Below the pieces are notes generated by a model. It was not told the DNA's origin. It searched no databases and was given only the letters and a program-made list of their open reading frames with translations. This document shows positions 18,286-35,318 of a stretch of DNA of 64,000 bases, piece by piece. This stretch comes from Rubrivivax sp. GTDB lineage: Bacteria; Pseudomonadota; Gammaproteobacteria; Burkholderiales; Burkholderiaceae_C. Every line of letters begins with the position of its first letter. The stretch's first letter is position 1. The position numbers and the translations under genes were made by a program. The stretch lies in the NCBI GenBank assembly GCA_019635285.1, contig JAHBZS010000005.1:62001-126000 (forward strand), in the 5' to 3' direction.

Positions 18286-18400
18286 GAGCGGCTCCTCGCG
18301 GGCAGGTCTGACATGGGCTCATGCTCGCGCGCCGCACCCCGGCCCTCAATCGCTCGGAGGATGGGCCCGTGGGGGGCCCTCTTTGGGGGGATCGTCCGGG

Positions 18401-18871
18401 TCAGCCACCCGGCGCGTGGTGCTCGATCAGGCTGCGCAGGATGCGCTTGAGCGTGCGCGCGTCCGCCGCGCCCAGCCTCTGCACCACCGCCGCCTCGTGC
18501 GCGCGCGCCTGCTGCACCAGCCGCGCCGCCAGCTTCAGGCCCTTGGCGCTGAGGCGGATGCGCGTGATGCGCCGGTCCTGCGCATCGTCGGCACGCAGCA
18601 GCAAGCCGGCCTGCACCATGCGCTCGGCCACGCGCGTCGCCGTGGACTGCGGCACCAGCACGATGGCCGCCACCTCGCCGACGCTCAGGGCCTGGCCGTC
18701 GGCCAGCGTGGCCAGCACGCGCCACTGCAGCACCGGCAGCCGCGAACGCCGCACCACCACATGGAACTCGGCCGAAATCAGCTGGCTGGCGCGCGCCAGC
18801 AGATAGGCCAGGTAGCCGTCGATGAACGGCTCCGCCGCCGGTGCGGCTTGCAGGGCCCCCTGGGTGCGCAT
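18401..18871 (-). CDS. MarR family transcriptional regulator of the catabolic operon
   Basis: 156 residues with the MarR winged-helix layout: dimer helix FIDGYLAYLLARASQLISAE, recognition region LSVGEVAAIVLVPQSTATRVAERMVQAGLL, wing DDAQDRRITRIRLSAKG, and C-terminal helices. It is transcribed away from the long iorA...dctM operon, and a palindromic operator lies between the two starts. The arrangement implies autorepression and control of the operon, released by a small aromatic ligand. In Variovorax-type auxin loci a MarR protein plays this role and binds indole-3-acetate. Here the ligand is inferred, not shown. Downstream (18286-18400) no terminator with a T-run is visible. Confidence 0.92.
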   Translation of the reverse strand: MRTQGALQAAPAAEPFIDGYLAYLLARASQLISAEFHVVVRRSRLPVLQWRVLATLADGQALSVGEVAAIVLVPQSTATRVAERMVQAGLLLRADDAQDRRITRIRLSAKGLKLAARLVQQARAHEAAVVQRLGAADARTLKRILRSLIEHHAPGG

Positions 18872-18875
18872 GGGC

Positions 18876-18916
18876 TTTACAAATGCAATTGCATATGTTT
18901 AGATGTCAACTATATG
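18876..18916. promoter_or_regulatory. MarR operator and divergent promoter region
   Basis: An AT-rich island in GC-rich DNA. It contains the perfect palindrome ATGCAATTGCAT (18883-18894) inside the 20-bp near-palindrome ACAAATGCAATTGCATATGT (18879-18898), typical of MarR sites in size and symmetry. Possible rightward promoter elements overlap it: TTGCAT (18889-18894), a 16-bp gap, then TATATG (18911-18916). The MarR start codon is 8 bp to the left and iorA starts 50 bp to the right. Confidence 0.75.
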
Positions 18917-18965
18917 CCGTGGTCCTGCGCGGCACAAGCACCCCGCGAAGCCAAAGCGATCCACG

Positions 18966-21089
18966 ATGGCCGAACGTTCGTTTGCCGAGGAAGTGAAGAA
19001 GCTGCGCCTGGGCGCCGGCGAAACCTTTGCCGGCGAAGGCATCCTGGCCGTCACCAAGGCGCTGCTGCAGTCCGGCGTGGCCTACGTGGCCGGCTACCAG
19101 GGCTCGCCGATCTCGCACCTGATGGACGTGCTGGCCGACGCGCAGGACATCCTGGCCGAGATGGGCGTGCGCTTCGAGACCAGCGCCAGCGAGGCCACCG
19201 CCGCCGCCACGCTGGCCGCCAGCGTCAACTATCCGCTGCGCGGTGCGGTCACCTTCAAATCGACAGTGGGCACCAACGTCGCATCGGACGCGCTGGCCAA
19301 CCTGGCCTCGGGCGGCGTGACCGGCGGCGCGCTGGTCATCGTCGGCGAGGACTACGGCGACGGCTCCAGCATCATGCAGGAGCGCAGCCACGCCTTCGCC
19401 ATGAAGTCGCAGATGTGGCTGCTGGACCCGCGGCCCAACCTGCCCAGCATCGTGCGCGCGGTGGAGCAGGGCTTCGAGCTGTCGGAAGCCACGCACACGC
19501 CGGTGATGCTGCAGCTGCGCATCCGCGCCTGCCATGTGCACGGCCGCTTCACCGCCAAGGACAACCTGCGCCCGGCCTTCGGCATCGCCGACGCGCTGGC
19601 CGCGCCGAAGCGCGACGTCGACCGCATCGTGCTGCCGCCGGCCAGCTTCCTGCACGAGCGCGAGAAGGTCGAGCAGCGCTGGCCCGCGGCGCAACGCTTC
19701 ATCCAGGAACGCGGGCTCAACGAGTTCTTCGCCGAAGACGCGGCCGATGTCGGCGTCATCGTGCAGGGCGGCCTGACCAACTCGCTGCTGCGTGCGCTGG
19801 AGCGCCTGGGCCTGGCCGACGTCTACGGCCGCAGCCGCGTGCCGCTGTACGTGATGAACGTCGCCTACCCGCTGGTCGACGACGAGCTGCTGCGCTTCTG
19901 CGCCGGCAAGCGCGCCGTGCTGCTGGTCGAGGAAGGCCAGCCCAACTTCATCGAGCAGGGCATCGCCAGCGTGCTGCGCCGGCACGACCTGCAGACCCGG
20001 CTGGCCGGCAAAGGCCCGTTCCCGATGGCCGGCGAATACAGCCCCGACGTGCTGCACAAGGGCCTGCGCGCTTTCTTCGGCACACACCAGCCGGCGTGGC
20101 TTCCCCCCGCACCGCCCAAGCTCATCCCCATCCAGCCGATGAGCGTGCACGCGCGCCCGCCGGGGCTGTGCACCGGCTGCCCCGAACGCCCGGTGTTCGC
20201 CGCGCTGAAGCTGGTGCAGCGCGAACTGGGCGAACACCACGTCAGCGCCGACATCGGCTGCCACCTGTTCTCGATCCTGCCGCCCTTCCACATCGGCAAC
20301 ACCACCATGGGCTACGGGCTGGGCGCGGCCGGCGCGGCGGCCTTCAACACGCCGTCGGCCAAACGCGCCATCAGCATCATGGGCGACGGCGGTTTCTGGC
20401 ACAACGGCCTGACCAGCGGCATCGCCAACGCGGTGTTCAACAAGAGCAACAACCTGACGCTGGTCATCGACAACAACTACACCGCCGCCACCGGCGGGCA
20501 GGACATCCCGTCGTCGCGCGCCAGCAACCGCACGCGCAGCACCTGGCACCCCATCGAAAAGGCGGTGCGCGGCGTCGGCGTCGAATGGGTACGCACGATG
20601 CGCCGCACCTACGACGTGGCCGGCATGCGCGCGGCCATCCGCGAGGCGCTGACCACCCAGGAGCCCGGGCCGAAGGTCATCGTCGCGCAGAGCGAATGCA
20701 TGCTCAACCGCCAGCGCCGCGAGAAGCCGCTGGTCAAGCAGGCCATCGCCGCCGGGCGGCGCCAGGTGCGCGAACGCTTCGGCGTCGACAGCGACACCTG
20801 CACCGGCGACCATTCCTGCATCCGCATCAGCGGCTGCCCGTCGTTGAGCATCAAGCCCAACCCCGACCCGCTGCGCAGCGACCCGGTGGCCACCGTGCTG
20901 GACTCCTGCGTCGGCTGCGGCATGTGCGGCGAGGTCTCGCATGCCGCGGTGCTGTGCCCGTCGTTCTACCGCGCCGGGCTGATCAGCAACCCCAGCGCCT
21001 GGGACCGCTGGCTGGCCAAGCTGCGCGCCGCCGTCATCGGTGCGCTGCAGCGCCGCCGCGCGCGGCGGCTGGCGGCCAGCGCGTTCTGA
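18966..21089 (+). CDS. iorA: 2-Oxoacid (indolepyruvate) ferredoxin oxidoreductase, alpha subunit type
   Basis: 707 residues. The family converts aryl 2-oxoacids to acyl-CoA with CO2 release, using thiamine diphosphate and Fe-S clusters. The N-terminal transketolase-like domain is present (AYVAGYQGSPISHLMDVLAD). Next is the cysteine motif LCTGCPERP. The thiamine diphosphate motif is GDGGFWHNGLTSGIANAVFN with downstream NNYTAATGGQDIPS. A C-terminal ferredoxin-like region follows with DTCTGDHSC, GCP and the cluster motif SCVGCGMCGEVSHAAVLCPS. ATG 18966 is chosen because it starts the conserved sequence. First gene of the operon, 50 bp from the MarR operator. In the pathway proposed here its substrate would be isatinate (2-aminophenylglyoxylate). 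Confidence 0.88.
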   Translation: MAERSFAEEVKKLRLGAGETFAGEGILAVTKALLQSGVAYVAGYQGSPISHLMDVLADAQDILAEMGVRFETSASEATAAATLAASVNYPLRGAVTFKSTVGTNVASDALANLASGGVTGGALVIVGEDYGDGSSIMQERSHAFAMKSQMWLLDPRPNLPSIVRAVEQGFELSEATHTPVMLQLRIRACHVHGRFTAKDNLRPAFGIADALAAPKRDVDRIVLPPASFLHEREKVEQRWPAAQRFIQERGLNEFFAEDAADVGVIVQGGLTNSLLRALERLGLADVYGRSRVPLYVMNVAYPLVDDELLRFCAGKRAVLLVEEGQPNFIEQGIASVLRRHDLQTRLAGKGPFPMAGEYSPDVLHKGLRAFFGTHQPAWLPPAPPKLIPIQPMSVHARPPGLCTGCPERPVFAALKLVQRELGEHHVSADIGCHLFSILPPFHIGNTTMGYGLGAAGAAAFNTPSAKRAISIMGDGGFWHNGLTSGIANAVFNKSNNLTLVIDNNYTAATGGQDIPSSRASNRTRSTWHPIEKAVRGVGVEWVRTMRRTYDVAGMRAAIREALTTQEPGPKVIVAQSECMLNRQRREKPLVKQAIAAGRRQVRERFGVDSDTCTGDHSCIRISGCPSLSIKPNPDPLRSDPVATVLDSCVGCGMCGEVSHAAVLCPSFYRAGLISNPSAWDRWLAKLRAAVIGALQRRRARRLAASAF

Positions 21090-21093
21090 AAGC

Positions 21094-22590
21094 ATGGCCA
21101 TGCAGGCGCAGCCGATCAAGATCGCCATCCTCGCCATGGGCGGCGAAGGCGGCGGCGTGCTCGCCGACTGGATCGTCGACCTGGCCGAGCACGAAGGCCA
21201 CATTGCACAGACCACCTCGGTGGCCGGCGTGGCGCAGCGCACCGGCGCCACCATCTACTACCTGGAGCTGTTCCCGCGCGCCGCGGCCGAGGCCACCGGC
21301 GCCGAGCCGGTGCTGGCGCTGATCCCCACGCCCGGCGACGTCGACGTGCTGCTCGCCTCCGAGCTGATGGAAGCCGGCCGCGCGCTGCAGCGCGGGTTGG
21401 TGACGCCCGAGCGCACGACACTCATCGCGTCCACGCACCGCGTCTACGCCATCGCCGAGAAGTCGGCGATGGGCGACGGCCGCGCCGACGTCGGCCAGCT
21501 CGAAGCCGCCTGCGCCGCCGCGGCGCTGCGCTTCCTGCGCTTCGACATGGCAGCCGCGGCCGAGCGCCATGGCAGCGTCATCAGCGCGGTGCTGTTCGGC
21601 GCGCTGTACGGCAGCGGCGCGCTGCCCTTCGACCGCGAGGCCTTCGAAAGCACCATCCGCCGCGGCGGCGTCGGCATCCAGGCCAGCCTGGCGGCTTTCG
21701 CCGAAGGCGCGACGCTGGCCGTGGCCCGGCCCGCGCCCGTCGGGGTGGACGCACCGCCCAAGCCGCTGCCCGCCAGCCACCCCAACGCCGCCATCCAGGC
21801 GCTGCTGCAGCGCCTGCGGAGGCAGTTCGCGCCCGCGCAACAAACGCTGCTGGCCGAGGGACTGCGCCGCCTGGTCGACTACCAGGACGCGGCCTATGCC
21901 GCGCTCTACCTCGACCGCATGCAGGCGCTGGCCGCCCATGGCCACGACGCGCTCACCGCCGACACGGCGCGCCACCTGGCGTTGTGGATGAGCTACGAGG
22001 ACACGGTGCGCGTCGCCGACCTGAAGACCCGTGCCACGCGCTTCGACCGCGTGCGCGGCGAGGTCCGGGTGAGTGCGCAGCAGGTGCTGCAGATCAACGA
22101 ATACATGCACCCGCGACTGCAGGAGATCTGCGACACCCTGCCCGCCGGCCTGGGCCGCTGGCTGCAGCATTCGGGCGCGCCGCGGCGCTTCGTCGAGCGC
22201 TTCACCGCCCAGGGCCGCGTCGTGCAGACCAGCTCACTGGGCGGCTTCCTGCTGCTGTACATGCTGGCCGGCCTGCGCCGCTGGCGCCGCGGCAGCCTGC
22301 GCTACGCGTTGGAGAACGCGCGCATCGAGGCCTGGCTGCAGGCCGTCCATGCCGCGGCGCAGGCCGACCCGGCGCTGGCGCTGGAGATCGTGCGCTGCCA
22401 GCGCCTGGTCAAGGGCTACGGCGACACGCACGAGCGCGGCCTGCGCAACTTCGAGCGGCTGATGGCCGCGGCCCGGCAGCTGGCCGGCCGCGCCGACGCC
22501 GCACCCGCCTTGGCCCGGCTGCGCGAGGCCGCGCTGGCCGACGAACACGGCCAGGCCCTGGACCACGCCTGGGCCGCTGCCGCACTCTGA
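21094..22590 (+). CDS. iorB: 2-Oxoacid (indolepyruvate) oxidoreductase, beta/gamma subunit type
   Basis: 498 residues. The N-terminal 190 residues are the gamma-type domain of 2-oxoacid:ferredoxin oxidoreductases: IAILAMGGEGGGVLADWIVD and TTSVAGVAQRTGATIYYLEL. The C-terminal 300 residues are the helical extension typical of long proteobacterial IorB proteins (DYEDTVRVADLKTRATRFDR-like). The ATG is 4 bp after the iorA stop. Partner of IorA in the cytosol. The order iorA-iorB followed by a Rieske dioxygenase is unlike a pure amino-acid fermentation locus and ties the oxidoreductase to aromatic breakdown. Confidence 0.88.
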   Translation: MAMQAQPIKIAILAMGGEGGGVLADWIVDLAEHEGHIAQTTSVAGVAQRTGATIYYLELFPRAAAEATGAEPVLALIPTPGDVDVLLASELMEAGRALQRGLVTPERTTLIASTHRVYAIAEKSAMGDGRADVGQLEAACAAAALRFLRFDMAAAAERHGSVISAVLFGALYGSGALPFDREAFESTIRRGGVGIQASLAAFAEGATLAVARPAPVGVDAPPKPLPASHPNAAIQALLQRLRRQFAPAQQTLLAEGLRRLVDYQDAAYAALYLDRMQALAAHGHDALTADTARHLALWMSYEDTVRVADLKTRATRFDRVRGEVRVSAQQVLQINEYMHPRLQEICDTLPAGLGRWLQHSGAPRRFVERFTAQGRVVQTSSLGGFLLLYMLAGLRRWRRGSLRYALENARIEAWLQAVHAAAQADPALALEIVRCQRLVKGYGDTHERGLRNFERLMAAARQLAGRADAAPALARLREAALADEHGQALDHAWAAAAL

Positions 22591-22604
22591 GCAAGGAGCC
22601 CGCG

Positions 22605-23930
22605 ATGGACCGCTACACCGGACCGACCGAAGACCTGAAGGCGCGCATCCTGGCGCTGGTGCAGCCCGACCGCGTGCACCGCGACCTGTACGTCAGCGAC
22701 GAGATCTTCCGCCTGGAGCAGGAACACTTCTTCGCCAACACCTGGAACTACGTCGGCCACGGCAGCCAGATCCCCAAGCCCGGTGACTACCTCACCGTGG
22801 ACATCGCCGGCCGGCCGCTGATCGTCGTGCGCCAGCCCGACGGCTCGCCCAAGGTGCTGATGAACCGCTGCGCGCACAAGGGCTCGCGGCTGGTGTCGCA
22901 GGCCTGCGGCCACGCCGGCAAGTTCTTCCGCTGCCCATACCACGCCTGGACCTTCCGCACCGACGGCTCGCTGCTCAACACGCCGGTGAAAGAAGGCTAC
23001 GACGGCACGGCGATGCGCGACTGCGAAGCGGGCCAGGGCCTGGTGGTCATCCCGCACGTGCGCGAATACCGCGGCTTCCTGTTCGCCAAGATCAACGACG
23101 TCGGCCCCGGCTTCGAGGACTACTTCGGCGAGTCGCTGTCCAGCATCGACAACATGGCCGACCGCTCGCCCGAAGGCGAGCTGGAGATCGCCGGCGGCTG
23201 CCTGCGCTACCTGCACAACTGCAACTGGAAGATGTTCGTCGAGAACCTGAACGACACCATGCACCCGATGGTGGCGCACGAGTCCTCGGCCGGCACGGCC
23301 GTGAAGATGTGGATGGGCCAGCCGGCCGACGCGCCCAAGCCGATGGCCATCGAGCAGTTCGCGCCCTTCATGTCCGACTACCAGTTCTTCGACGACATGG
23401 GGGTGCGCGTGTTCGACAACGGGCACAGCTTTTCCGGCGCCAAGTTCAGCATCCACAGCAAGTACTCGGGGGTGCCGGCCTACGAAGAAGCCATGGTCAA
23501 GGCCTACGGCGAGCAGCGCGCGCACGACATCCTGGGGCTGACGCGGCACAACACCGTGTACTTCCCCAACCTGACGATCAAGGGCGCGATCCAGGCCATC
23601 CGCGTCGTCAAGCCGCTGGCCGTGGACAAGACCCTGATCGAGAGCTGGACCTTCAGGCTCAAGGGCGCGCCGCCGGAGCTGCTGCGCCGCACCGCCATGT
23701 ACACGCGGCTCATCAACTCGCCCTTCTCGGTGGTCGGCCACGACGACCTGCATGCCTACCGCGGCATCCAGGAAGGCCTGCGCGCCAGTGGCAACGACTG
23801 GATCAGCCTGCACCGCAACTACGACCCCGCCGAGCGCGAGCAGACGGACCTGACGGTCAACGGGCTGAGCGAGATCTCGATGCGCAACCAGTACCGCGCC
23901 TGGGCCAGGTACATGACCTTGGACATGTGA
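22605..23930 (+). CDS. Rieske aromatic-ring dioxygenase, large (alpha) subunit
   Basis: 441 residues. The Rieske [2Fe-2S] site is Cys89-X-His91 (RCAHKGSR) and Cys110-X2-His113 (FRCPYHAWTF). The mononuclear iron site has His220 and His225 in NDTMHPMVAHES, with the bridging Asp217 that carries electrons between subunits. AAGGAG lies upstream of ATG 22605. With the next gene it forms the terminal oxygenase. No ferredoxin or reductase gene is seen in this operon, so electrons must come from a partner encoded elsewhere. In the inferred pathway it would correspond to the IadD-type oxygenase acting on indole-3-acetate. Benzoate- or phthalate-type substrates are the alternative. Confidence 0.93.
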   Translation: MDRYTGPTEDLKARILALVQPDRVHRDLYVSDEIFRLEQEHFFANTWNYVGHGSQIPKPGDYLTVDIAGRPLIVVRQPDGSPKVLMNRCAHKGSRLVSQACGHAGKFFRCPYHAWTFRTDGSLLNTPVKEGYDGTAMRDCEAGQGLVVIPHVREYRGFLFAKINDVGPGFEDYFGESLSSIDNMADRSPEGELEIAGGCLRYLHNCNWKMFVENLNDTMHPMVAHESSAGTAVKMWMGQPADAPKPMAIEQFAPFMSDYQFFDDMGVRVFDNGHSFSGAKFSIHSKYSGVPAYEEAMVKAYGEQRAHDILGLTRHNTVYFPNLTIKGAIQAIRVVKPLAVDKTLIESWTFRLKGAPPELLRRTAMYTRLINSPFSVVGHDDLHAYRGIQEGLRASGNDWISLHRNYDPAEREQTDLTVNGLSEISMRNQYRAWARYMTLDM

Positions 23931-23941
23931 TGGAGGCCGCC

Positions 23942-24436
23942 ATGACCACCGCCCGGGACGTGACGGCCGAGCACCTGGTGAAGCTGGTGCTGCACGAGGC
24001 GCGGCTGCTCGACGCGCACGACTACGACGCCTGGAACCGCCTGTTCACCGACGACGCCTTCTACTGGATCCCGCTGCAGCACGACCAGCCCGACGGCATC
24101 GACCACACCTCGCACATGTACGAGGACAAGTTGCTGCGCGAGCTGCGCATCGAGCGGCTGAAGAGCCCGCGCGCGTTCTCGCAGCAGCCGCCCAGCCGCA
24201 GCCACCACCTGCTGCAGCAACCCAGCGTGGAGACGCTGGACGCGGCGGCCAACCACTTCGTCACGCGCACCGAGTTCCACTACAGCGAAGCGCGCGGCGA
24301 CGAGATGCTGATGCTCGTCGGCACCGCCTTCCACCATTTCCGCGTCGACGGCGACGGCGCGCTGCGCTTCACGCTCAAGCGCGTCAACCTGCTCAACTGC
24401 GACGCGGCGCTGCCGTCGATCCAGCTGTTCATCTGA
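23942..24436 (+). CDS. Rieske aromatic-ring dioxygenase, small (beta) subunit
   Basis: 164 residues of the NTF2-like beta-subunit fold: ARLLDAHDYDAWNRLFTDDAFYWIP near the N-terminus, a middle RIERLKSPRAFSQQPPSRSHH and a C-terminal strand RFTLKRVNLLNCD. Two starts are possible. ATG 23930 overlaps the alpha stop. ATG 23942 is preceded by a perfect GGAGG 6 bp upstream, so I chose the latter. It forms the alpha3beta3 oxygenase with the preceding gene product and has no catalytic residues of its own. Confidence 0.92.
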   Translation: MTTARDVTAEHLVKLVLHEARLLDAHDYDAWNRLFTDDAFYWIPLQHDQPDGIDHTSHMYEDKLLRELRIERLKSPRAFSQQPPSRSHHLLQQPSVETLDAAANHFVTRTEFHYSEARGDEMLMLVGTAFHHFRVDGDGALRFTLKRVNLLNCDAALPSIQLFI

Positions 24437-24438
24437 GC

Positions 24439-26064
24439 ATGGCCGACAGCGTCTACCAGGCCTTTGCCGAGCGCGCGCGTCGGCAACCCGACGCCGACTT
24501 CCTGTGCACCGAGCCGGTCACCGCGGCGGCCTACGGCATCGCCGCCGGCACGCTGCGCTATGGCGAGGCGCTGGCCCGGGTCGAGACGCTGCGCCAGCGC
24601 TACGCCGCCGCCGGCTACGGCCACGGCCACCGCGCCGGGCTGCTGCTGGAGAACCGGCCGGACTTCTTCCTGCACTGGTTCGCGCTCAACGCGCTGGGCG
24701 TCGGCGTGGTGCCCATCAACAACGACCTGCGCGCCGCCGAGTTGGGCTACCTGCTGGCGCACAGCGAGCTGTGCCTGGCCATCAGCCTGGCCGCACGCAT
24801 CGACGACCTGCGCGCCGCGGCCGTGCCCGGCCGCGCGCCGGTGCTGCTGCCGCCGGACCATGCCGGCCCCGTGCCGGCCGCACCCTGGCCGGCGCCTGCG
24901 GCAGGGCAGCCGCTGGCCCGCGCCAGCGAATGTGCGCTGCTCTACACCTCGGGCACCACCGGCCGGCCCAAGGGCTGCGTGCTCAGCAACGACTACTTCC
25001 TGCGCGCCGGCGCCTGGTACGCCACGATCGGCGGCCTGTGCACGCTGCACGAAGGCCGCGAAAGGATGATCACGCCGCTGCCGCTGACGCACATGAACGC
25101 CATGGCCTACTCCGCCATGGCCATGCTCATGACCGGCGGCTGCCTGGTGCAGCTGGACCGCTTCCACCCCGGCAGCTGGTGGGACTCGGTGCGTGCGTCG
25201 CGCGCCACCGTCGCGCACTACCTGGGCGTGATGCCGGCCATGCTGCTGGGCGCGCCGCCGTCGCCGGCCGACCGCGACCATGCCGTGCGCTTCGGCTTCG
25301 GCGCGGGCGTCGACCGGCGCCAGCAGGCAGTGTTCGAGCAGCGCTTCGGCTTTCCGCTGCTCGAGGCCTGGGCCATGACCGAGACCGGCGCGGGCGCGGT
25401 GGTCATTGCCAACCACGAGCCGCGGCACGTGGGCCAGAGCTGCTTCGGCCGCGCCGAAGCCGCGGTGCAGTGGCGCCTGGTCGGCGAGGACGGCGCCGAC
25501 GTGGCCACCGGCCAGCCGGGCGAGCTGTGGGTGCGCGCCGCGGGCGCCGACCCGCGCGCCGGCTTCTTCAGCGAATACCTGAAGGACGCCGTGGCCACGG
25601 CCGAGGCCTGGGCCGACGGCTGGTTCCACACCGGCGACCTGGTGCGCGCCGATGCCGACGGCCACCTGTACTTCGTCGACCGCAAGAAAAACGTCATCCG
25701 CCGCAGCGGCGAGAACATCTCCGCGGTGGAAGTGGAAAGCGTGCTCGCGTTGCATCCGCGCGTGGCCGCGGTGGCGGTGGCCGCCGTGCCCGACGCGGTG
25801 CGCGGCGACGAGGTGCTGGCCTGCATCGTGCGGCGCGATGCGCAGCCCGACGAGGACCTGCCCGCGCTGGCCACGCAGATCACGCAGCATGCGCTGCAGC
25901 AGCTGGCCTACTACAAGGCGCCCGGCTACGTGGCCTTCGTCGACGCGCTGCCGCTGACCCTGTCGCAGAAGGTGCAGCGCGCGCAGCTGAAGACGCTGGC
26001 GCAGACCTTGCCCGGCCAGCCGGGCTGCGTCGACACCCGCGGCTTGAAGAAGCGCACGGCATGA
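24439..26064 (+). CDS. AMP-forming acyl-CoA ligase
   Basis: 541 residues of the ANL superfamily. Motifs are LLYTSGTTGRPKGCVLSN (ATP-binding loop), EAWAMTETGAG (adenine motif), WFHTGDLVRADADGHLYFVD and the hinge RKKNVIRRSGENISAVEVE. The catalytic Lys is near the C-terminus (LPLTLSQKVQRAQLK). It starts 2 bp after the beta-subunit stop. It activates a carboxylic acid as CoA ester in the cytosol. In the inferred route that acid is dioxindole-3-acetate made by the dioxygenase. The stop codon overlaps the ATG that opens the 74-bp element at 26061. Confidence 0.9.
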   Translation: MADSVYQAFAERARRQPDADFLCTEPVTAAAYGIAAGTLRYGEALARVETLRQRYAAAGYGHGHRAGLLLENRPDFFLHWFALNALGVGVVPINNDLRAAELGYLLAHSELCLAISLAARIDDLRAAAVPGRAPVLLPPDHAGPVPAAPWPAPAAGQPLARASECALLYTSGTTGRPKGCVLSNDYFLRAGAWYATIGGLCTLHEGRERMITPLPLTHMNAMAYSAMAMLMTGGCLVQLDRFHPGSWWDSVRASRATVAHYLGVMPAMLLGAPPSPADRDHAVRFGFGAGVDRRQQAVFEQRFGFPLLEAWAMTETGAGAVVIANHEPRHVGQSCFGRAEAAVQWRLVGEDGADVATGQPGELWVRAAGADPRAGFFSEYLKDAVATAEAWADGWFHTGDLVRADADGHLYFVDRKKNVIRRSGENISAVEVESVLALHPRVAAVAVAAVPDAVRGDEVLACIVRRDAQPDEDLPALATQITQHALQQLAYYKAPGYVAFVDALPLTLSQKVQRAQLKTLAQTLPGQPGCVDTRGLKKRTA

Positions 26065-26134
26065 GCCGCGCACAGCCACCCGAAACTGTCCATCCCCGCC
26101 TGGCGGGGCGGCGCGCAGCGCCTGGGGTGCCTGC
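26061..26134 (+). repeat. Single 74-bp coupling element between CoA ligase and thiolase-like gene
   Basis: From the ATGA overlapping the ligase stop (26061-26064) to the GTGA that starts the thiolase-like gene (26135) is exactly 74 bp, the same length as each copy at 7801-7948. Shared parts are ATGAGC at the left end, ACCCGAA, a C/G palindrome (CCCCGCCTGGCGGGG versus CGCCCCCTTGGGGGGC), then CGGCGCGCAGCGCCTGGGG and GCC at the right end. It reads as a 25-codon frame, MSRAQPPETVHPRLAGRRAA then PGVPA, whose TGA overlaps the GTG of the next gene. The left half is diverged from the yej copies, so it is an older or different family member. Confidence 0.75.
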
Positions 26135-27301: not shown

Positions 27302-27705
27302 GTTGCGTGCGCGGCGTTCAGCGTGGCGCGCGGTGCGGGTCCGCGTTCTCCGGCCCACATCGCGGGCCAGCGACTTCTGTCCGCGCAGGTTGCCTCGTGC
27401 TCACCGACCAGGCAGGGACGGAGCCAGCGTACCGCGAACGGGGCCTGCGCCCGCGAACCCGCACCCCACGCCCTGCCACCATCGCAGGCATGCCACCAAG
27501 CGCACAGCGAGCGCCGCTCGCAGTGCGGCGGTGGTGCCCCCGGGCGCAGGCCCCGTTCGCGGCACGCTGGCCGGTGACCCGCATGGCCGGTATTGATGAG
27601 GAAGCAGGCCGCGACCAGAAACCCGTCGCCCGCGATGTGGGCCGGAGAACGCGGGTGCCGCCGGCGCGCTGCCGCAGCGGTGCAGGCACCGAGGACTTCA
27701 CATGA
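27298..27705 (+). repeat. 404-bp giant inverted-repeat element filling the gap between thiolase-like and DUF35-SDR genes
   Basis: The roughly 400 bp without a recognised gene form one long imperfect hairpin centred near 27497. Outer arms 27341-27367 and 27628-27654 are perfectly complementary over 27 bp. Inner arms 27424-27453 and 27541-27570 match at 29 of 30. A smaller hairpin around GCGAGCGCCGCTCGC sits at the centre. It is bounded by ATGA at 27298 (overlapping the thiolase stop) and ATGA at 27702 (the next start). A 135-codon open frame begins at the first ATG and ends in the TGA that overlaps the second. Its product is Arg/Pro-rich and unlike any family I know. I see a MITE-like insertion rather than a gene. 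Confidence 0.75.
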
Positions 27706-28958: not shown

Positions 28959-29740
28959 ACGGCACCGAAATCCTCGGCGCACTGGCCGGCGCGCTGCGCG
29001 GCGGGCAGATCCAGGTCATCGACCTGACGCAGACCTTGACGCCGGAATTTCCGCAGATCGCGCTGCCGCCGGAGTTCGGCCAGTGCTGGCCCTTCCGCAT
29101 CGAGGAGGTGTCCAGGTACGACGAGCGCGGCCCCGGCTGGTACTGGAACAACTTTTCCTGCGGCGAACACACCGGCACCCACTTCGACGCGCCGATCCAC
29201 TGGATCAGCGGCCGCGACCTGCCCAACAACTCGGTGGACACCATTCCGGTGGGCCACTTCGTCGCGCCGGCAGTGGTCATCGACTGTTCGGCGCAGGCCG
29301 CGGCCGACCCCGACCACCTGCTCACCGTCGACGCGGTGCTGGCCTGGGAAAAGACGCACGGACGCATCCCCGAAGGCGCGTGGGTGCTGATGCGCACCGA
29401 CTGGTCCAAGCGCAGCGACCCGGAGGCCTACCAGAACTTCGACGAGACCGGCCAGCACACGCCCGGCCCCGATGCGGAGGTGGCGCGCTTCCTGGTCGAA
29501 GAGCGCGGCGTGCTGGGCTTCGGCAGCGAGGCCATCGGCACCGACGCCGGCCAGGGCTACCACCTGCGCCCGCCCTACCCCTGCCACTACTACATGCATG
29601 GCGCGGGGCGCTACGGGCTGCAGTGCCTGAGCCACCTGGACAAGCTGCCGCCCACCGGCGCGCTGCTGATCTGCCCGCCGTTGAAGATTCAGAAAGGCAG
29701 CGGCAGCCCGCTTCGCGTGCTGGCGCTGGTGGCAACATGA
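28955..29740 (+). CDS. Cyclase-family metal hydrolase, isatin hydrolase / kynurenine formamidase type
   Basis: 261 residues with a GTG start overlapping the previous stop (GTGA), GGGAGC upstream. The family metal motif H-X-G-T-H-X-D-X-P-X-H is complete: His72, Gly74, Thr75, His76, Asp78, Pro80, His82 (CGEHTGTHFDAPIHW). Other family features are VIDLTQTLTPEFP near the N-terminus, GAWVLMRTDWSKR, and GFGSEAIGTDAG. These Mn2+/Zn2+ enzymes hydrolyse N-formylkynurenine, isatin or similar cyclic amides. Given an upstream dioxygenase and a possible isatin-forming retro-aldolase, isatin hydrolase (isatin to isatinate) is the best guess. N-formyl or lactone hydrolase are alternatives. Confidence 0.85.
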   Translation: MNGTEILGALAGALRGGQIQVIDLTQTLTPEFPQIALPPEFGQCWPFRIEEVSRYDERGPGWYWNNFSCGEHTGTHFDAPIHWISGRDLPNNSVDTIPVGHFVAPAVVIDCSAQAAADPDHLLTVDAVLAWEKTHGRIPEGAWVLMRTDWSKRSDPEAYQNFDETGQHTPGPDAEVARFLVEERGVLGFGSEAIGTDAGQGYHLRPPYPCHYYMHGAGRYGLQCLSHLDKLPPTGALLICPPLKIQKGSGSPLRVLALVAT

Positions 29741-30471
29741 ACATTCCGAAGCAACGCCTCGCGGTGGTCACCGGCGGCAGCGCCGGCATCGGCGAGGAAA
29801 TCTGCCGCCAGCTGCTGGCCGACGGCGGGGCCGTGGTGTCGATGGCGCGCCGGCCGCCGTCCTTCAGCCACGAACACCTGCATTCGATCGAGGTGGACCT
29901 TGCCGACCGCGCGGCCACCGCGCAGGCCGCCGACGAGGTGGCGCGCCGCTTCGCGCCCGACACGATCATTCACAACGCCGGCGTCATCCTGCCCGCGCTG
30001 CTGCCGGACGTGAAGCTCAGCGACCTGGACACCTTGGTCGAGATCCATCTGTCCACGGCGATCCTGCTGGCGCAGGCCTGCGTGCCGGCCATGCAGGCGG
30101 CGGGCTTCGGCCGCATCGTGCTGCTGTCGTCGCGCGGCGCCCTGGGGCTGGCCACACGCACCGCCTATGCCGCCACCAAAGCCGGCATGCTGGGCATGGC
30201 GCGCACCTGGGCGCTGGAGCTGGCGCCGCACGGCATCACCGTCAACGTGGTGTCGCCCGGCCCGGTGCAGACCGACATGTTCCACGGCGTCATTCCGGTG
30301 GGCGACCCCAAGGTGGCGCAGATCGCCGCCGGCATTCCGGTCAAGCGCCTGGGGCAGCCCGCGGACGTGGCGCATGCGGTGCGCTTCTTCTGCGATGCAC
30401 AGGCCAGCTTCGTCACCGGCCAGGTGCTGTACGTGTGCGGCGGCACCAGTGTCGGGAGCCTGACCTTATGA
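29737..30471 (+). CDS. Short-chain dehydrogenase/reductase
   Basis: 244 residues, ATGA overlap with the previous gene. It is a classical SDR with all functional motifs: cofactor loop TGGSAGIG at 12-19, HNAG, catalytic Ser in LLSSRGA, and Tyr-X3-Lys in TAYAATKAG. SPGPVQTDMF and the C-terminal FVTGQVLYVCGG complete the fold. Asp/Glu at the end of beta2 is not obvious (SMARRPP), which would favour NADP(H). It contrasts with the degenerate SDR domain encoded just upstream. A hydroxy-intermediate dehydrogenase of the same pathway is likely; the exact substrate is unknown. Confidence 0.88.
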   Translation: MNIPKQRLAVVTGGSAGIGEEICRQLLADGGAVVSMARRPPSFSHEHLHSIEVDLADRAATAQAADEVARRFAPDTIIHNAGVILPALLPDVKLSDLDTLVEIHLSTAILLAQACVPAMQAAGFGRIVLLSSRGALGLATRTAYAATKAGMLGMARTWALELAPHGITVNVVSPGPVQTDMFHGVIPVGDPKVAQIAAGIPVKRLGQPADVAHAVRFFCDAQASFVTGQVLYVCGGTSVGSLTL

Positions 30472-31544
30472 AGATCGCCGTCCTGGGTGGTGGCCACGGC
30501 TGTTATGCCGCCGCCGCCGATTTAAGCGAGGCCGGCCACGAGGTGCGGCTGTGGCGCCGCGACGCGGCGGCGCTGGCGCCGGTGCAGCAAGGCGGCATCC
30601 TCCTCAAGGACCAGAAGGGCCCACGCGACGTGCGCCTCGCGCTGGCCAGCGGCGACCTGGGCGCCGTGCTGCGCGGCGCCGAGCTGGTGCTCATCCCGTC
30701 GCCGGCTGTCGCACAAGACGACATCGCGCGCGCCATGGCGCCGCACCTGGTCGATGGCCAGGTGGTGTTCCTGCCGCCGGGCACCTTCGGCAGCGTGACC
30801 ATGGACCGCATCGTGCGCGCCGCCGGCAACGCGGCCGAGGTGACCTATGCCGAGACCGGCACCTTGCCTTGGCTGGCGCGCAAGCACGGTGCGGCGGAAG
30901 TGGCCATCACCATTCGCGCCATCCATCTGCCCACCGGCGTGTACCCGCAAGCGCGCAGCGCGCATGCGCTGGCGGTGATCTCGAAGGCCTTCCCGGGCGT
31001 GATCGAGGACTGCGGCGATGCGCTGTCGGGCGCGCTGATGAACGCCGGGCCGATCATCCACCCGCCGCTGATCCTGATGAACGCGGCGCCGCTGCAGCAC
31101 TTCGAGCGCTGGGACATCCACAACGAAGGCACGCAGCCGGCGGTGCGCGCCGTGACCAGCGCGCTCGATGCCGAGCGCATGGCCACGCGCGAGGCGCTGG
31201 GCTATGGCGCGCCGCACTTCCCGCTGGCCGACCACTACGACAACGACCGCTGGATGTACGGCGACGCGCACAAGAAGCTCACCGACAGCGGCGACTGGCG
31301 CGAGACCATCGACCTGCACACGCACCGCTACATGCTCGAGGACACGGTGCTGGGCCTGGCCTTCCTGGCCTCGGTGGCGCGCTACGCCAATGTGGACGCC
31401 CCGGTGGCGCACGGCCTGCTGGCGCTGGCCGGCGCCATCCTCGGCCGCGACCTGCGCCAGGGCCCGCGCACCTTGGACGCGCTCGGCCTGTCCGGCTTGA
31501 GCCGAGCGCAGTTGCAGGCGCGGCTGCGCAGCGGCCCGGCATGA
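30468..31544 (+). CDS. Opine/octopine-dehydrogenase family NAD(P)-binding protein
   Basis: 358 residues starting MKIAVLGGGHGCYAAAADLS, ATGA-coupled to the SDR gene. The N-terminal Rossmann domain has GGGHG and then LWRRD. The C-terminal helical domain has GALMNAGPIIHPPLILMNAA and the His-containing YMLEDTVLGLAFLASVAR, both characteristic of the NAD/NADP octopine/nopaline dehydrogenase family. Such enzymes reduce imines formed between an amine and a 2-oxoacid, or act on related 2-hydroxy acids. Its place in this operon is unexplained. One possibility is handling of amine/2-oxoacid adducts of isatinate. That is speculation. Confidence 0.82.
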   Translation: MKIAVLGGGHGCYAAAADLSEAGHEVRLWRRDAAALAPVQQGGILLKDQKGPRDVRLALASGDLGAVLRGAELVLIPSPAVAQDDIARAMAPHLVDGQVVFLPPGTFGSVTMDRIVRAAGNAAEVTYAETGTLPWLARKHGAAEVAITIRAIHLPTGVYPQARSAHALAVISKAFPGVIEDCGDALSGALMNAGPIIHPPLILMNAAPLQHFERWDIHNEGTQPAVRAVTSALDAERMATREALGYGAPHFPLADHYDNDRWMYGDAHKKLTDSGDWRETIDLHTHRYMLEDTVLGLAFLASVARYANVDAPVAHGLLALAGAILGRDLRQGPRTLDALGLSGLSRAQLQARLRSGPA

Positions 31545-32521
31545 TGGAGCGCATCGCCTGCGTCGGCGCCGGCCGCATGGGCCGGGGCATCGCCCTGGCC
31601 TTCGCCTACGCCGGCATGCCGGTGGCGCTGATCGACCTGAAGCCGCGCAGCGCCGACGCCTGGGCGCGCCTGGCGGCCGAGGCATCGGCAGAGATTCACG
31701 GCAGCCTGCAGCTGCTGGCCCAGTTGGGCGCGGTGCCGGCCGATGCGGTGGCACGCATCGCCGCGCGCATCACCCTGGTGCCCGACGCCGAGGCCGATGC
31801 CGTGCTGGCGGCGGCCACGGTGATCTTCGAAGGTGTGCCGGAGACGCTGCAGGCCAAGCGCGAGGTGCTGGCGCGTGTGTGCAAGGCGGCCGCGCCGGAC
31901 GCGATCATCGCCTCCACCACCTCGACCATCCTGGTCACCGACCTGCTGCCGCTGGTCACGCAGGCCGAGCGGCTGATCAACGCCCACTGGCTGAACCCGG
32001 CCTACCTCGTTCCGCTGGTGGAGCTGAGCGTGCACGACGGCACCTCGGCCGCCGTGCGCCAGCGCCTGGGCGCGCTGCTGCAGGGCATCGGCAAGCAGAC
32101 CGTGACCTGCGGCCCGGCGCCGGGCTACATCGTGCCGCGGCTGCAGGCGCTGATCATGAACGAGGCCGCGCGCATGGTCGAAGATGGCGTGGCCACGGCC
32201 GAGGACATCGACAAGGCCACGCGCTACGGCCTGGGCCTGCGCTTCGCCGCGATGGGCGTGGTCGAGTTCATCGACTTCGGCGGCAACGACATCCTGTACC
32301 ACGCCAGCCGCTACCTGAGCCGCACCCTGAGCGCCGAGCGCTACACCGCGCCGGCCATCGTCGACACGATGATGGCCGAGGGCCGCAACGGGCTGAAGAG
32401 CGGGCAGGGCTTCTACGACTACCAAGGCATCGACGTCGCCGCCTATCGTCTGGACGTGCTGCGGCGCACGCTGGGCATGCTCAAGCATGCCGGCCTGTTC
32501 AGACCCCCCGTCACCGACTGA
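31541..32521 (+). CDS. 3-Hydroxyacyl-CoA dehydrogenase family protein
   Basis: 326 residues, start overlapping the previous stop (ATGATGG, two adjacent possible Met codons). The NAD-binding domain is GAGRMGRGIALAFAYAG, with EGVPETLQAKREVLARV and the catalytic-loop His in NAHWLNPAYLVPLVEL followed by SVHDGT. The C-terminal dimerisation domain has PGYIVPRLQALIMNEAARMVEDG and GRNGLKSGQGFYDY. It belongs to the short HAD enzymes resembling carnitine or 3-hydroxybutyryl-CoA dehydrogenase. The canonical HFFNP motif reads HWLNP. It could oxidise a hydroxyacyl-CoA derived from the side chain. Last enzyme gene before the transporter genes. Confidence 0.87.
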   Translation: MMERIACVGAGRMGRGIALAFAYAGMPVALIDLKPRSADAWARLAAEASAEIHGSLQLLAQLGAVPADAVARIAARITLVPDAEADAVLAAATVIFEGVPETLQAKREVLARVCKAAAPDAIIASTTSTILVTDLLPLVTQAERLINAHWLNPAYLVPLVELSVHDGTSAAVRQRLGALLQGIGKQTVTCGPAPGYIVPRLQALIMNEAARMVEDGVATAEDIDKATRYGLGLRFAAMGVVEFIDFGGNDILYHASRYLSRTLSAERYTAPAIVDTMMAEGRNGLKSGQGFYDYQGIDVAAYRLDVLRRTLGMLKHAGLFRPPVTD

Positions 32522-32537
32522 CCCCACGGAGAAGATC

Positions 32538-33509
32538 ATGCAAAGACGCAACCTGATCGCCCATGCCTGCGGCCTGGCGCTGCTTGGCGCCGGCAGCGCG
32601 GCGCTCGCCCAGGAGGTGACGCTGAAGGCCGTGAACGCCTTCCAGGAAGGCACCTACTTCGCGCGCGGCTTCGAGAAGTTCGTCAAGAAGGTCAACGACG
32701 AAGGCAAGGGGCTGGTGCAGATCAACTACATCGGCGGGCCCAAGGCCATCCCCACCTTCGAGCAGCCGAACGCGCTGCGCGCCGGCGTGGTCGACATGGC
32801 CAACACCACCTCGTCCTTCACCGCCGGGCTGGTGCCCGACGGCCTGGCGCTGAACTACACCCACTTGACGCAGGCCGAGATGCGCAAGAACGGCATCTTC
32901 GATCAGATCAACGCCAGCTATGCCGACAAGGGCCTGTACTACTACGCGCGCACCGGCGAGGGCGTGCAGTACTACATCTACAGCAACAAGAAGATCGACA
33001 AGGCCGACTTGACCGGCCTGAAGCTGCGCGTGGCGCCGATCTACCGCGACTTCCTGCAGAAGCAGAACGCCACCGTGGTGCAGATGGCGCCGGGCGAGGT
33101 CTACACCGCGCTGGAACGCGGCGTGGTCGACGGCTATGCCTGGCCGATGATCGGCATCTTCGACCTGGGCTGGCAGGAGAAGACCAAGTACCGCCTCGAA
33201 CCCGGCTTCTACGCCATCGAGCTGGGCGTGGTCTTCAATCTCAACAGCTGGAACAAGCTCAACGCGCAGCAGAAGGCCTTCCTGCAGAAGCAGGCCGAGT
33301 GGCTGGAGGCGCAGAACGTCGAGATGGGCAAGGTCGACGGCCCGGCCGACGCCAAGAAGCAGGCCGACGCCGGCATCCAGGTGCTGAAGCTCGACGACGC
33401 GCAGTCCAAGATCCTGCTCAAGGCGGCCTACGACGGCGGCTGGGAGCAGATCATCAAGGCCAGCCCGACCAAGGGCCCGCAGTTGCGCGCGCTGATGGAA
33501 CCCAAGTAG
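32538..33509 (+). CDS. TRAP transporter periplasmic binding protein, DctP type
   Basis: 323 residues. Signal peptide MQRRNLIAHACGLALLGAGSAALA is followed by a DctP-type ligand-binding fold. The conserved Arg that holds the substrate carboxylate is in GLKLRVAPIYRDFL, followed by APGEVYTALERGVVDGYAWP. ACGGAG precedes the ATG by 9 bp. With the next two genes it forms a complete TRAP system for sodium-driven uptake of a carboxylate. Position in the operon implies that it imports the pathway substrate (an aryl carboxylate such as indole-3-acetate) or a related acid. Confidence 0.93.
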   Translation: MQRRNLIAHACGLALLGAGSAALAQEVTLKAVNAFQEGTYFARGFEKFVKKVNDEGKGLVQINYIGGPKAIPTFEQPNALRAGVVDMANTTSSFTAGLVPDGLALNYTHLTQAEMRKNGIFDQINASYADKGLYYYARTGEGVQYYIYSNKKIDKADLTGLKLRVAPIYRDFLQKQNATVVQMAPGEVYTALERGVVDGYAWPMIGIFDLGWQEKTKYRLEPGFYAIELGVVFNLNSWNKLNAQQKAFLQKQAEWLEAQNVEMGKVDGPADAKKQADAGIQVLKLDDAQSKILLKAAYDGGWEQIIKASPTKGPQLRALMEPK

Positions 33510-33513
33510 CCCG

Positions 33514-34002
33514 ATGCGCAGCACCGCCTGGGGCCGGCTGATGCAGGCCTGCGGCGTGGCCGCCGCGCTGACCATCGGCGTCATGGTCGTGTTCGTCGGC
33601 TACGACGTGCTGGCCCGCAACACCGGCCTGCCCGCCATGGCCTGGGTGGCCGAGCTGAGCGAGTACGGGCTGGCGCTGGCCACGCTGCTGGCTGCGCCCT
33701 GGCTGCTGTGGACCGAGCAGCACGTGCGGCTGGACCTGCTGCAGATGAGCCTGTCGGCACGCGCCTGGGCGCGGCTGTACCGCGCCGCGGCGCTGCTGTG
33801 CCTGCTGATCAGCGCCACGCTGGCCTGGGTGACGCTGGCGGTGATCGCCGACCTGCGCCAGTCCGGCGCGCTGATCATGAAGAGCTTTACCTTCCCCGAG
33901 TGGTGGGTGTACGTGCCGGCGCCGCTGTGCTTCGGCCTGATGATGCTGGAATCCGCCCGGCAGCTGCGCGCCGGGCCGCGGCCCAAGGACGGCACGCCAT
34001 GA
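33514..34002 (+). CDS. TRAP transporter small membrane subunit, DctQ type
   Basis: 162 residues with four hydrophobic segments, the DctQ layout. VVFVGYDVLARN is the standard first-helix motif, followed by WVAELSEYGLALATLLAAPW and LLWTEQHVRLDLL (the H-V-R-X-D motif of DctQ). It is placed between dctP and dctM genes, overlapping the latter by 4 bp. Inner membrane protein of the TRAP system. Confidence 0.92.
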   Translation: MRSTAWGRLMQACGVAAALTIGVMVVFVGYDVLARNTGLPAMAWVAELSEYGLALATLLAAPWLLWTEQHVRLDLLQMSLSARAWARLYRAAALLCLLISATLAWVTLAVIADLRQSGALIMKSFTFPEWWVYVPAPLCFGLMMLESARQLRAGPRPKDGTP

Positions 34003-35318
34003 TCTGGTGGCAGACGCTGCTGCTGCTGTTCAGCGCACTCACCGCGCTGCTGATGCTGGGCCTGCCGGTGGGCTTCGCCTTCCTGGGCGTCAACCTGGTG
34101 GGGGCGCTGTTCTACCTGGGCGGCGAGCCGGGGCTGATGCAGGTAGTGCGCAACGGCGTCGCCTCGGTCACCAGCTTCTCGCTGACGCCGATCCCCTTCT
34201 TCGTGCTGATGGGCGAGGTGCTGTTCCACACCGGCGTGGCGATGAAGGCCATCGACGCCTTCGACCCGCTGATCTCGCGCGTGCCCGGCCGGCTGTCGGT
34301 GATCGCCATCGTCGCCGGCACGGTGTTCTCGGCGATCTCCGGCTCGACCATCGCCACCACCGCGCTGCTGGGCGGGCTGCTGCTGCCGCAGATGCTCAAG
34401 CGCGGCTACGAGCCGGGCATGGCGATGGGCCCGATCATGGCCATCGGCGGCGTGGACATGCTCATCCCGCCGTCGGCCTTGACGGTGCTGCTGGGCAGCC
34501 TGGCCGGCATCTCGATCACCGGGCTGCTGGTGGCCGGCGTGCTGCCGGGCCTGCTGCTGTCGGCGCTGTTCGTCGGCTACATCGTCATGCGCTGCAGCCT
34601 CAACCCCGCGCTGGCGCCGCGCTTCGAGCAGCAAAGCGTGGTCGGCTGGGCGCGCTGGCGCGCGTTGCTGCTGTACGTGACGCCGCTGGTCGGCATCTTC
34701 GTCGTCGTCGTCGTGGCCATGTCGGCAGGCTGGGCCACGCCCACCGAATCGGCAGCCATCGGCGCGCTGGCCACGGTGGCGGTGTGCGTGGCCTACCGCT
34801 CGCTGAGCTGGCGCGCGCTGCTGGACGCGCTGCGCGGCACCGCGGCCATCTCGGGGATGATCCTGTTCATCATCATCGGGGCGACCACCTTCTCGCAGAT
34901 CCTCAGCTTCTCGGGCGGCACCAACGGGCTGGTGACGCTGGTGCGCGATTCGGGCCTGTCGGCCTTCGGCGTGCTGCTGGTGATGATGGCCATCCTGCTG
35001 GTGCTGGGCTGCTTCATCGACCAGGTGAGCACGATGCTCATCACCTTGCCGTTCTACATGCCACTGGTGCAGCACTACGGTTTCGACCCGCTGTGGTTCG
35101 GCGTGATGTACCTGATCTGCATGCAGCTGGGCCTGCTGACGCCGCCCTTCGGCATGCTGCTGTTCACCATGCGCAGCGTCGCGCCGCCGCACATCAGCAC
35201 GCGCCAGATCTACGCGGCGGTGACGCCGTACGTGGTCTTCGGCATGCTGATGCTGGCCGCCGTGATGGCCGTGCCCGGGCTGGCCACCTGGCTGCCCCAA
35301 TGGTTACTGGCAAAGTAG
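33999..35318 (+). CDS. TRAP transporter large membrane subunit, DctM type
   Basis: 439 residues with about 12 hydrophobic segments. Family motifs are SFSLTPIPFFVLMGEVLFHTG, FSAISGSTIATTALLGGLLLPQMLKRGY, IPPSALTVLLGSLAGIS and the second-half repeat GCFIDQVSTMLITLPFYMPL. ATGA overlap with dctQ. This is the ion-coupled translocation channel. It is the last clearly coupled gene of the operon that starts at iorA; the next gene is 24 bp on and may be read through. Confidence 0.94.
   Translation: MIWWQTLLLLFSALTALLMLGLPVGFAFLGVNLVGALFYLGGEPGLMQVVRNGVASVTSFSLTPIPFFVLMGEVLFHTGVAMKAIDAFDPLISRVPGRLSVIAIVAGTVFSAISGSTIATTALLGGLLLPQMLKRGYEPGMAMGPIMAIGGVDMLIPPSALTVLLGSLAGISITGLLVAGVLPGLLLSALFVGYIVMRCSLNPALAPRFEQQSVVGWARWRALLLYVTPLVGIFVVVVVAMSAGWATPTESAAIGALATVAVCVAYRSLSWRALLDALRGTAAISGMILFIIIGATTFSQILSFSGGTNGLVTLVRDSGLSAFGVLLVMMAILLVLGCFIDQVSTMLITLPFYMPLVQHYGFDPLWFGVMYLICMQLGLLTPPFGMLLFTMRSVAPPHISTRQIYAAVTPYVVFGMLMLAAVMAVPGLATWLPQWLLAK

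Follow-up and report, generated by a model that had tools for sequence, protein, structure and literature searches.

The 64,000-nucleotide window analyzed here, positions 62,001 to 126,000 of contig JAHBZS010000005.1 from Rubrivivax sp. (assembly GCA_019635285.1), carries an operon that, judged by its sequence, almost certainly serves the degradation of indole-3-acetate (IAA) as an iad locus. The operon runs rightward, with all genes on the forward strand, from the start of iadA at position 18966 to the stop codon of a tripartite ATP-independent periplasmic (TRAP) permease gene at position 35318, and a gene for a MarR repressor, iadR (18401 to 18871, reverse strand), diverges from it. The residue patterns of its thiolase-fold protein IadG and of the DUF35 protein IadH strongly favor release of isatin by a retro-aldol cut over the published pairing of a ketothiolase with an alcohol dehydrogenase. 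For iad function and retro-aldol cleavage taken jointly we estimate a probability of about 75%. According to Conway et al. 2022 (PMC9613470), iad loci are repressed by MarR proteins and convert IAA to anthranilate, with isatin as an intermediate. We dropped the idea of a new pathway, because the literature already covers iad loci, the isatin intermediate and control by MarR; what is new is the reassignment of mechanisms. Gene identities, gene order and conserved active sites were read from the DNA, and the literature on relatives supplied the IAA substrate, the intermediates isatin and isatinate, and repression by IadR.

In the proposed pathway, IadR would repress the operon until IAA releases the repression. 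IadDE, with a reductase presumably encoded elsewhere in the genome, would oxygenate IAA, and IadJ would oxidize the hydrated product to dioxindole-3-acetate. IadF would then form the coenzyme A (CoA) ester, a tertiary β-hydroxyacyl-CoA, which IadG, aided by the DUF35 domain of IadH, would cut by retro-aldol reaction into isatin and acetyl-CoA. IadI would open isatin to isatinate, IadAB (IorAB) would oxidatively decarboxylate isatinate to anthraniloyl-CoA, and a flavin monooxygenase/reductase encoded elsewhere in the genome would take anthraniloyl-CoA onward.

The iad operon and its relatives

The initial annotation had described a MarR-controlled operon for IAA degradation via isatin. Frame and domain scans found its nine named genes and the three TRAP genes to be intact at the positions given here, and the same order recurs in the genomes named below, so that a chance arrangement can be set aside; sequence, gene order, active-site residues and regulator all match published iad loci. 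Overlooked at that stage were the fusion of IadH to a short-chain dehydrogenase/reductase (SDR)-like domain, iadJ, an octopine-dehydrogenase-like (ODH-like) gene, a 3-hydroxyacyl-CoA dehydrogenase-like (HAD-like) gene, and the lack of a reductase gene between iadB and iadD. The frames of the operon overlap or almost abut, the exception being the 400 bp that separate iadG from iadH.

Public genomes scanned with IadD yielded 593 relatives, the best 80 of which, dominated by Variovorax, formed our locus set (L020 and L021 come from the same strain; L096, L102 and L121, duplicates of L030, L006 and L051, respectively, were left out of all counts). Locus gene counts were made on 60 of the 80 loci, the 20 with short flanks being left out, and the main alignment kept 53 of 63 IadG and 50 of 51 IadH sequences in addition to those of the window, partial or low-identity matches being dropped. 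The three nearest relatives by IadD (85 to 95% identity) belong to bin fragments with the labels Proteobacteria, Rubrivivax sp. and Burkholderiales, which makes a Rubrivivax-like bacterium of the Burkholderiales the probable host. IadG had no match in the two other genomes of the host's genus within a sample of 200 genomes of the family.

The order A-B-(C)-D-E-F-G-H-I-J behind iadR is shared with Variovorax and its kin, and F-G-H-I-J were present in this order in the window. Identity to the A to J proteins of Variovorax sp. Root473 (L051), which is among the strains reported to have an iad-like operon up-regulated by IAA (PMC11630574), was 65 to 84%. The same source calls a locus iad-like if adjacent iadD and iadE genes show >50% identity and 60% coverage to templates. 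With Root473 as template instead of the paper's own, the adjacent genes iadD (22605 to 23930, Rieske oxygenase alpha subunit) and iadE (start at 23930 or 23942, end at 24436; beta subunit with a Ring_hydroxyl_B domain) gave 71% over 427 amino acids and 70% over 158 amino acids, respectively. IadD matched two deposited IadD sequences with E values of 8.7e-230 or better (1.5e-232 for 9O71, IadDE of V. paradoxus CL014), and all 14 residues listed in PMC10374108 for the iron-sulfur cluster, the iron and the IAA pocket were identical.

The best PDB match of IadR was 7kfo, MarR_73 of V. paradoxus CL14. Five of seven IAA-contact residues are identical, namely the carboxylate contacts Ser28, His32 and Arg46 as well as Tyr15 and Trp45, whereas Ala18 is replaced by Tyr and Val65 by Ile; of the indole contacts, three of five are kept, Arg46 counted. 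Because of the two exchanges, the ligand affinity of IadR may differ. The 24-bp MarR_73 site of CL14 is reported to lie in the corresponding iadR-iadA gap (PMC9613470), and by its position the 12-bp palindrome ATGCAATTGCAT at 18883 to 18894, within the likely operator/promoter region at 18872 to 18965, is the likely operator and presumed counterpart of that site. The stretches between iadR and iadA of different loci share 9-mers, with words common to up to 38 of 47 regions; none of them was spotted by eye in the region of the window, and we claim no common operator.

The loci of V. paradoxus CL14/CL014 and Root473 have the same gene set and order, R-A-B-D-E-F-G-H-I-J, together with ODH-like and HAD-like genes. 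They differ from the window in that iadC lies between iadB and iadD, that the ODH-like and HAD-like genes are located upstream of iadR in most Variovorax loci rather than downstream of iadJ, and that CL14 has published ABC-type solute-binding proteins where the window has TRAP genes at the end of the operon. Compared with Variovorax, the window operon furthermore lacks a second Rieske gene and possesses the spacer between iadG and iadH. Plasmid loci of Roseibium aggregatum and Sulfitobacter dubius likewise combine iadR, D-E-F-G-H-I-J and TRAP genes, but they contain a reductase gene, have no IorAB genes within 11 kb of iadG, and show 43 to 62% identity for D to J.

The two exchanges in IadR, the missing iadC and the different transporter would fit a locus serving a substrate related to IAA rather than IAA itself; we consider this unlikely, as IadD retains all 14 residues of its metal sites and IAA pocket, IadR retains its three carboxylate contacts, and genes A to J are so similar to those of Root473. 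Hydantoinase and mutase genes are, we assume, marks of the anaerobic iaa pathway. Neither domain was found in a Pfam scan of the 15 operon proteins, the remaining genome not having been searched for them, and by this domain content the operon does not appear to be of the anaerobic iaa type.

According to Jiang et al. 2025 (preprint, PMC12633357), IadCDE is a monooxygenase and IadJ completes the oxidation to dioxindole-3-acetate. The proposal in the initial annotation that the Rieske enzyme converts IAA to dioxindole-3-acetate thus holds for the oxygenation by IadDE, whereas dehydrogenation by IadJ is needed to arrive at this product. The IadJ protein (29737 to 30471) is a canonical SDR dehydrogenase with the YxxxK motif in 60 of 60 aligned sequences. 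An unnoticed reductase in the operon was considered and rejected, since only 14 bp lie between iadB and iadD. iadC is also absent in 14 of 59 loci in which iadB precedes iadD, several of these being short contigs. Because iadC is absent, the electron donor of IadDE would be unlinked. Weighing against our reading are this missing gene and the location of the genome's best IadC-like reductase (38%) beside a vanillate-demethylase-type (VanA-type) oxygenase. However, iadC is not part of the published iad definition and iadDE is reported to be sufficient in CL14 cells (PMC9613470), whereas purified IadDE without IadC did not turn over IAA (PMC10374108); a surrogate reductase is therefore plausible. 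The host genome encodes a second Rieske alpha subunit (L082, C22:13149-14441) with 40% identity to IadD and, by eye, a beta-subunit-like neighbor.

IadF (24439 to 26064) is an acyl-CoA ligase with an AMP-binding domain and 67% identity to the Root473 protein. IadI (28955 to 29740) had isatin hydrolase A as its best match (5NNB, a complex with isatinate; E value 2.1e-110), in agreement with the proposal that a cyclase-family enzyme opens isatin. It scored 27 bits with the arylformamidase model, whose cut-off is 223 bits. Besides this closest relation to isatin hydrolases, it possesses their metal motif HxG[T/A]HxDxPxH, in the form HxGTHxDxPxH in 50 of 50 aligned sequences, and the motif EHTGTHFDAPIHW occurred in 49 of the 50, with V for I in the remaining one.

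Proposed side-chain cleavage by IadG and IadH

IadG (26135 to 27301) carries Gly85 at the position of the thiolase cysteine and the motif Y281-D-D-Y284. The glycine was found in 67 of 67 sequences and YDDY in 68 of 68, a set composed of 54 sequences of the main alignment, four from plasmid loci, six from loci of other families and four further ones, of which one (L100) is partial and was left out of the glycine count. The nearest solved relative by sequence was 9myr, the bile acid aldolase Sal-Shy(DUF35), and a structural model of IadG with moderate confidence (pLDDT 72.2) had its best fold match there too. We used this model and the weak one of IadH (pLDDT 68.6) for statements at the level of the fold only; those on active sites come from the alignments.

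In aldolases of the thiolase fold, glycine replaces the nucleophilic cysteine and a tyrosine base lies in YDCY (Sal) or YDHF (Ltp2); SCP-2 thiolases carry HDCF (PMC12329534). The steroid aldolases Sal-Shy and Ltp2-ChsH2 share with IadG the thiolase fold, the glycine for cysteine, the tyrosine base in YDxY/F and a DUF35 partner, and the β-hydroxyacyl-CoA type of substrate predicted for IadG is theirs too. A difference lies in the third motif residue, Asp283 of IadG, which is cysteine in Sal and histidine in Ltp2. Because of this exchange we filed IadG under neither clade, though by its other residues it likely works like these aldolases; with the aspartate of YDDY, the acid residue would be provided in a third way. 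The benzoylsuccinyl-CoA thiolase BbsAB (7pxp) has the same architecture of thiolase and DUF35 protein as IadG/IadH, but BbsB aligns a cysteine and HDAF where IadG has the glycine and YDDY.

The iadH gene (27702 to 28958) directly follows iadG in the operon order and encodes a protein in which a DUF35 part (zinc ribbon and OB domain) is joined to an SDR-like domain; in Shy, the fusion partner of DUF35 is MaoC. The four zinc cysteines were kept in 65 of 65 sequences. The SDR Tyr/Lys pair, in contrast, was complete in only four of the 65 (L004, L029, L060 and L076). The protein of the window has Phe322 in place of the catalytic tyrosine. Apart from the four, 51 sequences show Phe-Lys, and ten distant ones show Tyr-Gln (three cases), Phe-Asn, Phe-Gln, His-Gln, Val-His, His-His, Ala-Ala and His-Cys. 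In our own alignment the first glycine of the Rossmann motif is replaced by aspartate in all 51 IadH sequences of the main set. The C-terminal part of IadH in general thus lacks the residue pair expected of an SDR alcohol dehydrogenase. In an alphaproteobacterial bin (L071, 5727-7240) the equivalent of IadH, located straight after iadG, consists of DUF35 only. Because the zinc cysteines are kept, the SDR pair is mostly lost and L071 manages with DUF35 only, we regard DUF35 as the working part that supports IadG. A stricter claim that the SDR part is a dead enzyme was softened, since apart from the four sequences with Tyr and Lys three more retain the tyrosine alone; the few proteins that keep both residues may be active.

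Jiang et al. 2025 (PMC12633357) assigned IadF as CoA synthetase, IadG as ketothiolase and IadH as alcohol dehydrogenase, roles inferred from annotation, and in their model IadFGH reductively remove the acetyl group to form dioxindole for IadI. The compound C8H7NO2, named as the IadFGH product in this source, has the formula of dioxindole and not of isatin, and it builds up in an iadI deletion and in an iadCDEFGH_JK2 strain. These data speak against a redox-free release of isatin, as do the four IadH sequences with an intact Tyr/Lys pair and the related SDR protein 5u4s, which lacks the tyrosine and was nevertheless crystallized with NADP. However, in the published model IadG would have to act without the thiolase cysteine and on a substrate without a β-keto group, IadH would have to work with an incomplete SDR pair and an altered glycine motif in most sequences, and dioxindole would be handed to a protein that by sequence is an isatin hydrolase. 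C8H7NO2 could be reduced isatin, formed unspecifically when IadI is absent. We therefore consider the published assignment improbable and the retro-aldol cut by a cysteine-less thiolase and DUF35 pair, already proposed in the initial annotation, the better fit to the residues of IadG and IadH. Among the matches listed in our search of the open-access literature, to which the search was confined, no paper tied IadG to an aldolase or iad loci to anthraniloyl-CoA.

Cleavage of the ring before the side chain, with C10H9NO4 as 2-formamidobenzoylacetate, IadG as a true β-ketothiolase and IadI as a formamidase acting on N-formylanthraniloyl-CoA, would agree with the calculated formula, which equals that of dioxindole-3-acetate, with a route that the supporting text of PMC11630574 mentions for an old isolate and with the annotation of IadI as kynurenine formamidase (PMC12633357), but it is very unlikely given the missing nucleophile in IadG, the isatin hydrolase match and low arylformamidase score of IadI, the detection of isatin and isatinic acid in CL14 (PMC9613470), and the reported exclusion of N-formylanthranilate by tandem mass spectrometry (PMC12633357).

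Proposed route from isatinate to anthraniloyl-CoA

iadA (18966 to 21089) encodes an IorA-type alpha subunit of a thiamine pyrophosphate-dependent 2-oxoacid oxidoreductase, with a TPP_enzyme_C domain and 74% identity to the Root473 protein; it scored 285 bits with TIGR03336 (IOR_alpha), below the 651-bit cut-off of that model. iadB (21100 to 22590) encodes an IorB-type beta subunit with POR and DUF6537 domains, which exceeded the cut-off of NF006179 with 723 bits. Among the 60 flanked loci, 45 contain A and B together with G, H and I, 11 lack A, B and I, two have A and B without I, one has G, H and I without A and B (L012), and one has B only. The genomes of L012 and of G146, whose loci lack IadA, encode it elsewhere (71% and 67% identity), and these were the two such genomes tested. 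In the family sample, IadG occurred in 16 of 200 genomes, and IadA was detected at E 1e-250 in 14 of these 16 but only in 12 of the 184 others (p = 9e-13). With a limit of at least 1040 bits, a gap picked after the scores were known, the counts were 14 of 16 and 5 of 184 (p = 1e-15). The p values assume independent genomes, an assumption that does not hold here, and the co-occurrence and linkage counts ignore shared ancestry. In Bradyrhizobium japonicum treated with IAA, iorB was reported to be up-regulated 7.64-fold and the alpha-subunit gene 30.70-fold (PMC3788728).

A product gene further down the route was sought with NF006101, a family of flavin monooxygenases/reductases whose architecture is presumably also that of 2-aminobenzoyl-CoA monooxygenase/reductase. 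All 16 IadG genomes were over the cut-off, in contrast to 99 of the 184 others (p = 9e-5) and none of 14 control genomes. The NF006101 gene lay within 13 kb of iadG in five of the 16 (G045, G090, G146, G173 and G199) and near G-H-I also in two of the six loci from other families (L116 and L120). In the host genome, where the initial annotation had suggested looking for anthranilate or anthraniloyl-CoA genes, an NF006101 gene occupies C63:1845-4172, with a gene for enoyl-CoA hydratase about 0.5 kb away. No match to TIGR03228, anthranilate dioxygenase, was over the cut-off in this genome, other anthranilate routes not having been searched, and an exit through this dioxygenase is thus unsupported here. 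Because of the NF006101 gene and the lack of a TIGR03228 match, anthraniloyl-CoA is the likelier exit in this organism; in relatives it could also come from anthranilate through a ligase.

Taking the co-occurrence of IadA and the linkage of NF006101 together, we moderately favor the step by which IorAB, as first proposed from the gene set, takes isatinate to anthraniloyl-CoA. Several points count against it. In V. paradoxus, anthranilate formation was restored by the nine genes iadC-K2, a set that lacks iadAB (PMC12633357), and IorAB is hence not strictly needed there. Two of the 16 IadG genomes (G176 and G196) show no IadA at E 1e-250, and much of the co-occurrence merely reflects one shared locus. 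NF006101, moreover, takes its name from salicylyl-CoA (5-)hydroxylase and occurs widely in the family, over the cut-off in 115 of the 200 genomes.

IorAB could instead be engaged elsewhere, for example in the oxidation of indolepyruvate, and isatinate could be decarboxylated to 2-aminobenzaldehyde and then oxidized to anthranilate. Compounds with the formulas of isatinate (C8H7NO3) and aminobenzaldehyde (C7H7NO) were indeed observed, and anthranilate was made, in the iadC-K2 strain, whose background is deleted for genes 77-53 and hence for iadA (gene 72) (PMC12633357, PMC9613470). An aldehyde dehydrogenase gene also adjoins the Sulfitobacter locus that lacks IorAB within 11 kb. However, the two compounds accumulated strongly only when the whole iadC-K2 set was overexpressed (PMC12633357), which may reflect isatinate that piles up when IadAB is missing or may be an effect of overexpression alone, and is weak evidence. 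The co-occurrence of IadA with IadG and the presence of IadA elsewhere in both tested genomes with a locus lacking it argue for a role in the pathway, and we regard the aldehyde route as possible but the less probable one. The aldehyde dehydrogenase gene of the Sulfitobacter locus lies at 15978-17474 of L104 and may represent an aminobenzaldehyde exit there.

Accessory genes, variant loci and implications

Downstream of iadJ follow the ODH-like gene (30468 to 31544), present in 37 of the 60 flanked loci, and the HAD-like gene (31541 to 32521; over the cut-off of NF006125), present in 39; both travel together with 37 of the 60 loci. The operon ends with genes that the domain scan identified as the TRAP solute-binding protein DctP (32538 to 33509), the small permease DctQ (33514 to 34002) and the large permease DctM (33999 to 35318). 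We would guess from the gene position that they import IAA. As TRAP genes adjoin the iad loci on the Roseibium and Sulfitobacter plasmids as well, the exchange of ABC and TRAP systems seems to recur.

The 400-bp spacer between iadG and iadH (27302 to 27701) is a long imperfect palindrome with the arms 27326-27385/27610-27669 and 27403-27453/27541-27591 and an RNA folding z score of -10.4. A search of the host genome gave no second full-length copy; apart from the spacer on its two strands, there was only one match, of 33 bases. An Rfam scan of positions 18000 to 36600 gave no match at the gathering threshold. In L012, L015 and L036, iadG and iadH overlap without a spacer.

Seven of the flanked loci, all from Paraburkholderia (L055, L057-L059, L061, L065 and L066), contain D-E-F-J and iadR without close G, H, I, A or B, and carry a distant thiolase (36 to 38% identity) on the opposite strand; perhaps they process dioxindole-3-acetyl-CoA in another way. 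Conversely, L106 (a Shinella plasmid, with IorAB), L105, L115-L118 and L120 contain F-G-H-I or G-H-I with no IadD match in the fetched stretch, which suggests that the module forming isatin also operates downstream of different initial oxygenases.

Root bacteria with iad loci can clear the auxin that other bacteria produce, and transfer of these loci into commensals is under way (PMC12633357). In that work, gene annotation was the basis for assigning the steps between dioxindole-acetate and C8H7NO2. The residue patterns of IadG and IadH offer a redox-neutral, testable chemistry for these steps, would extend retro-aldolases of the steroid type to an aromatic heterocycle, and name extra genes, iadAB and that for 2-aminobenzoyl-CoA monooxygenase, which a complete pathway may need. 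With only a slight lean in its favor, we propose that YDDY marks a third class of thiolase-fold, DUF35-dependent aldolases, that the cleavage is redox-free with the SDR part of most IadH proteins as a catalytically silent scaffold, and that the pathway ends in anthraniloyl-CoA via IorAB and 2-aminobenzoyl-CoA monooxygenase/reductase rather than in free anthranilate. If this is true, the published roles of IadG and IadH would no longer hold, and IadAB would have to be counted as part of the pathway.

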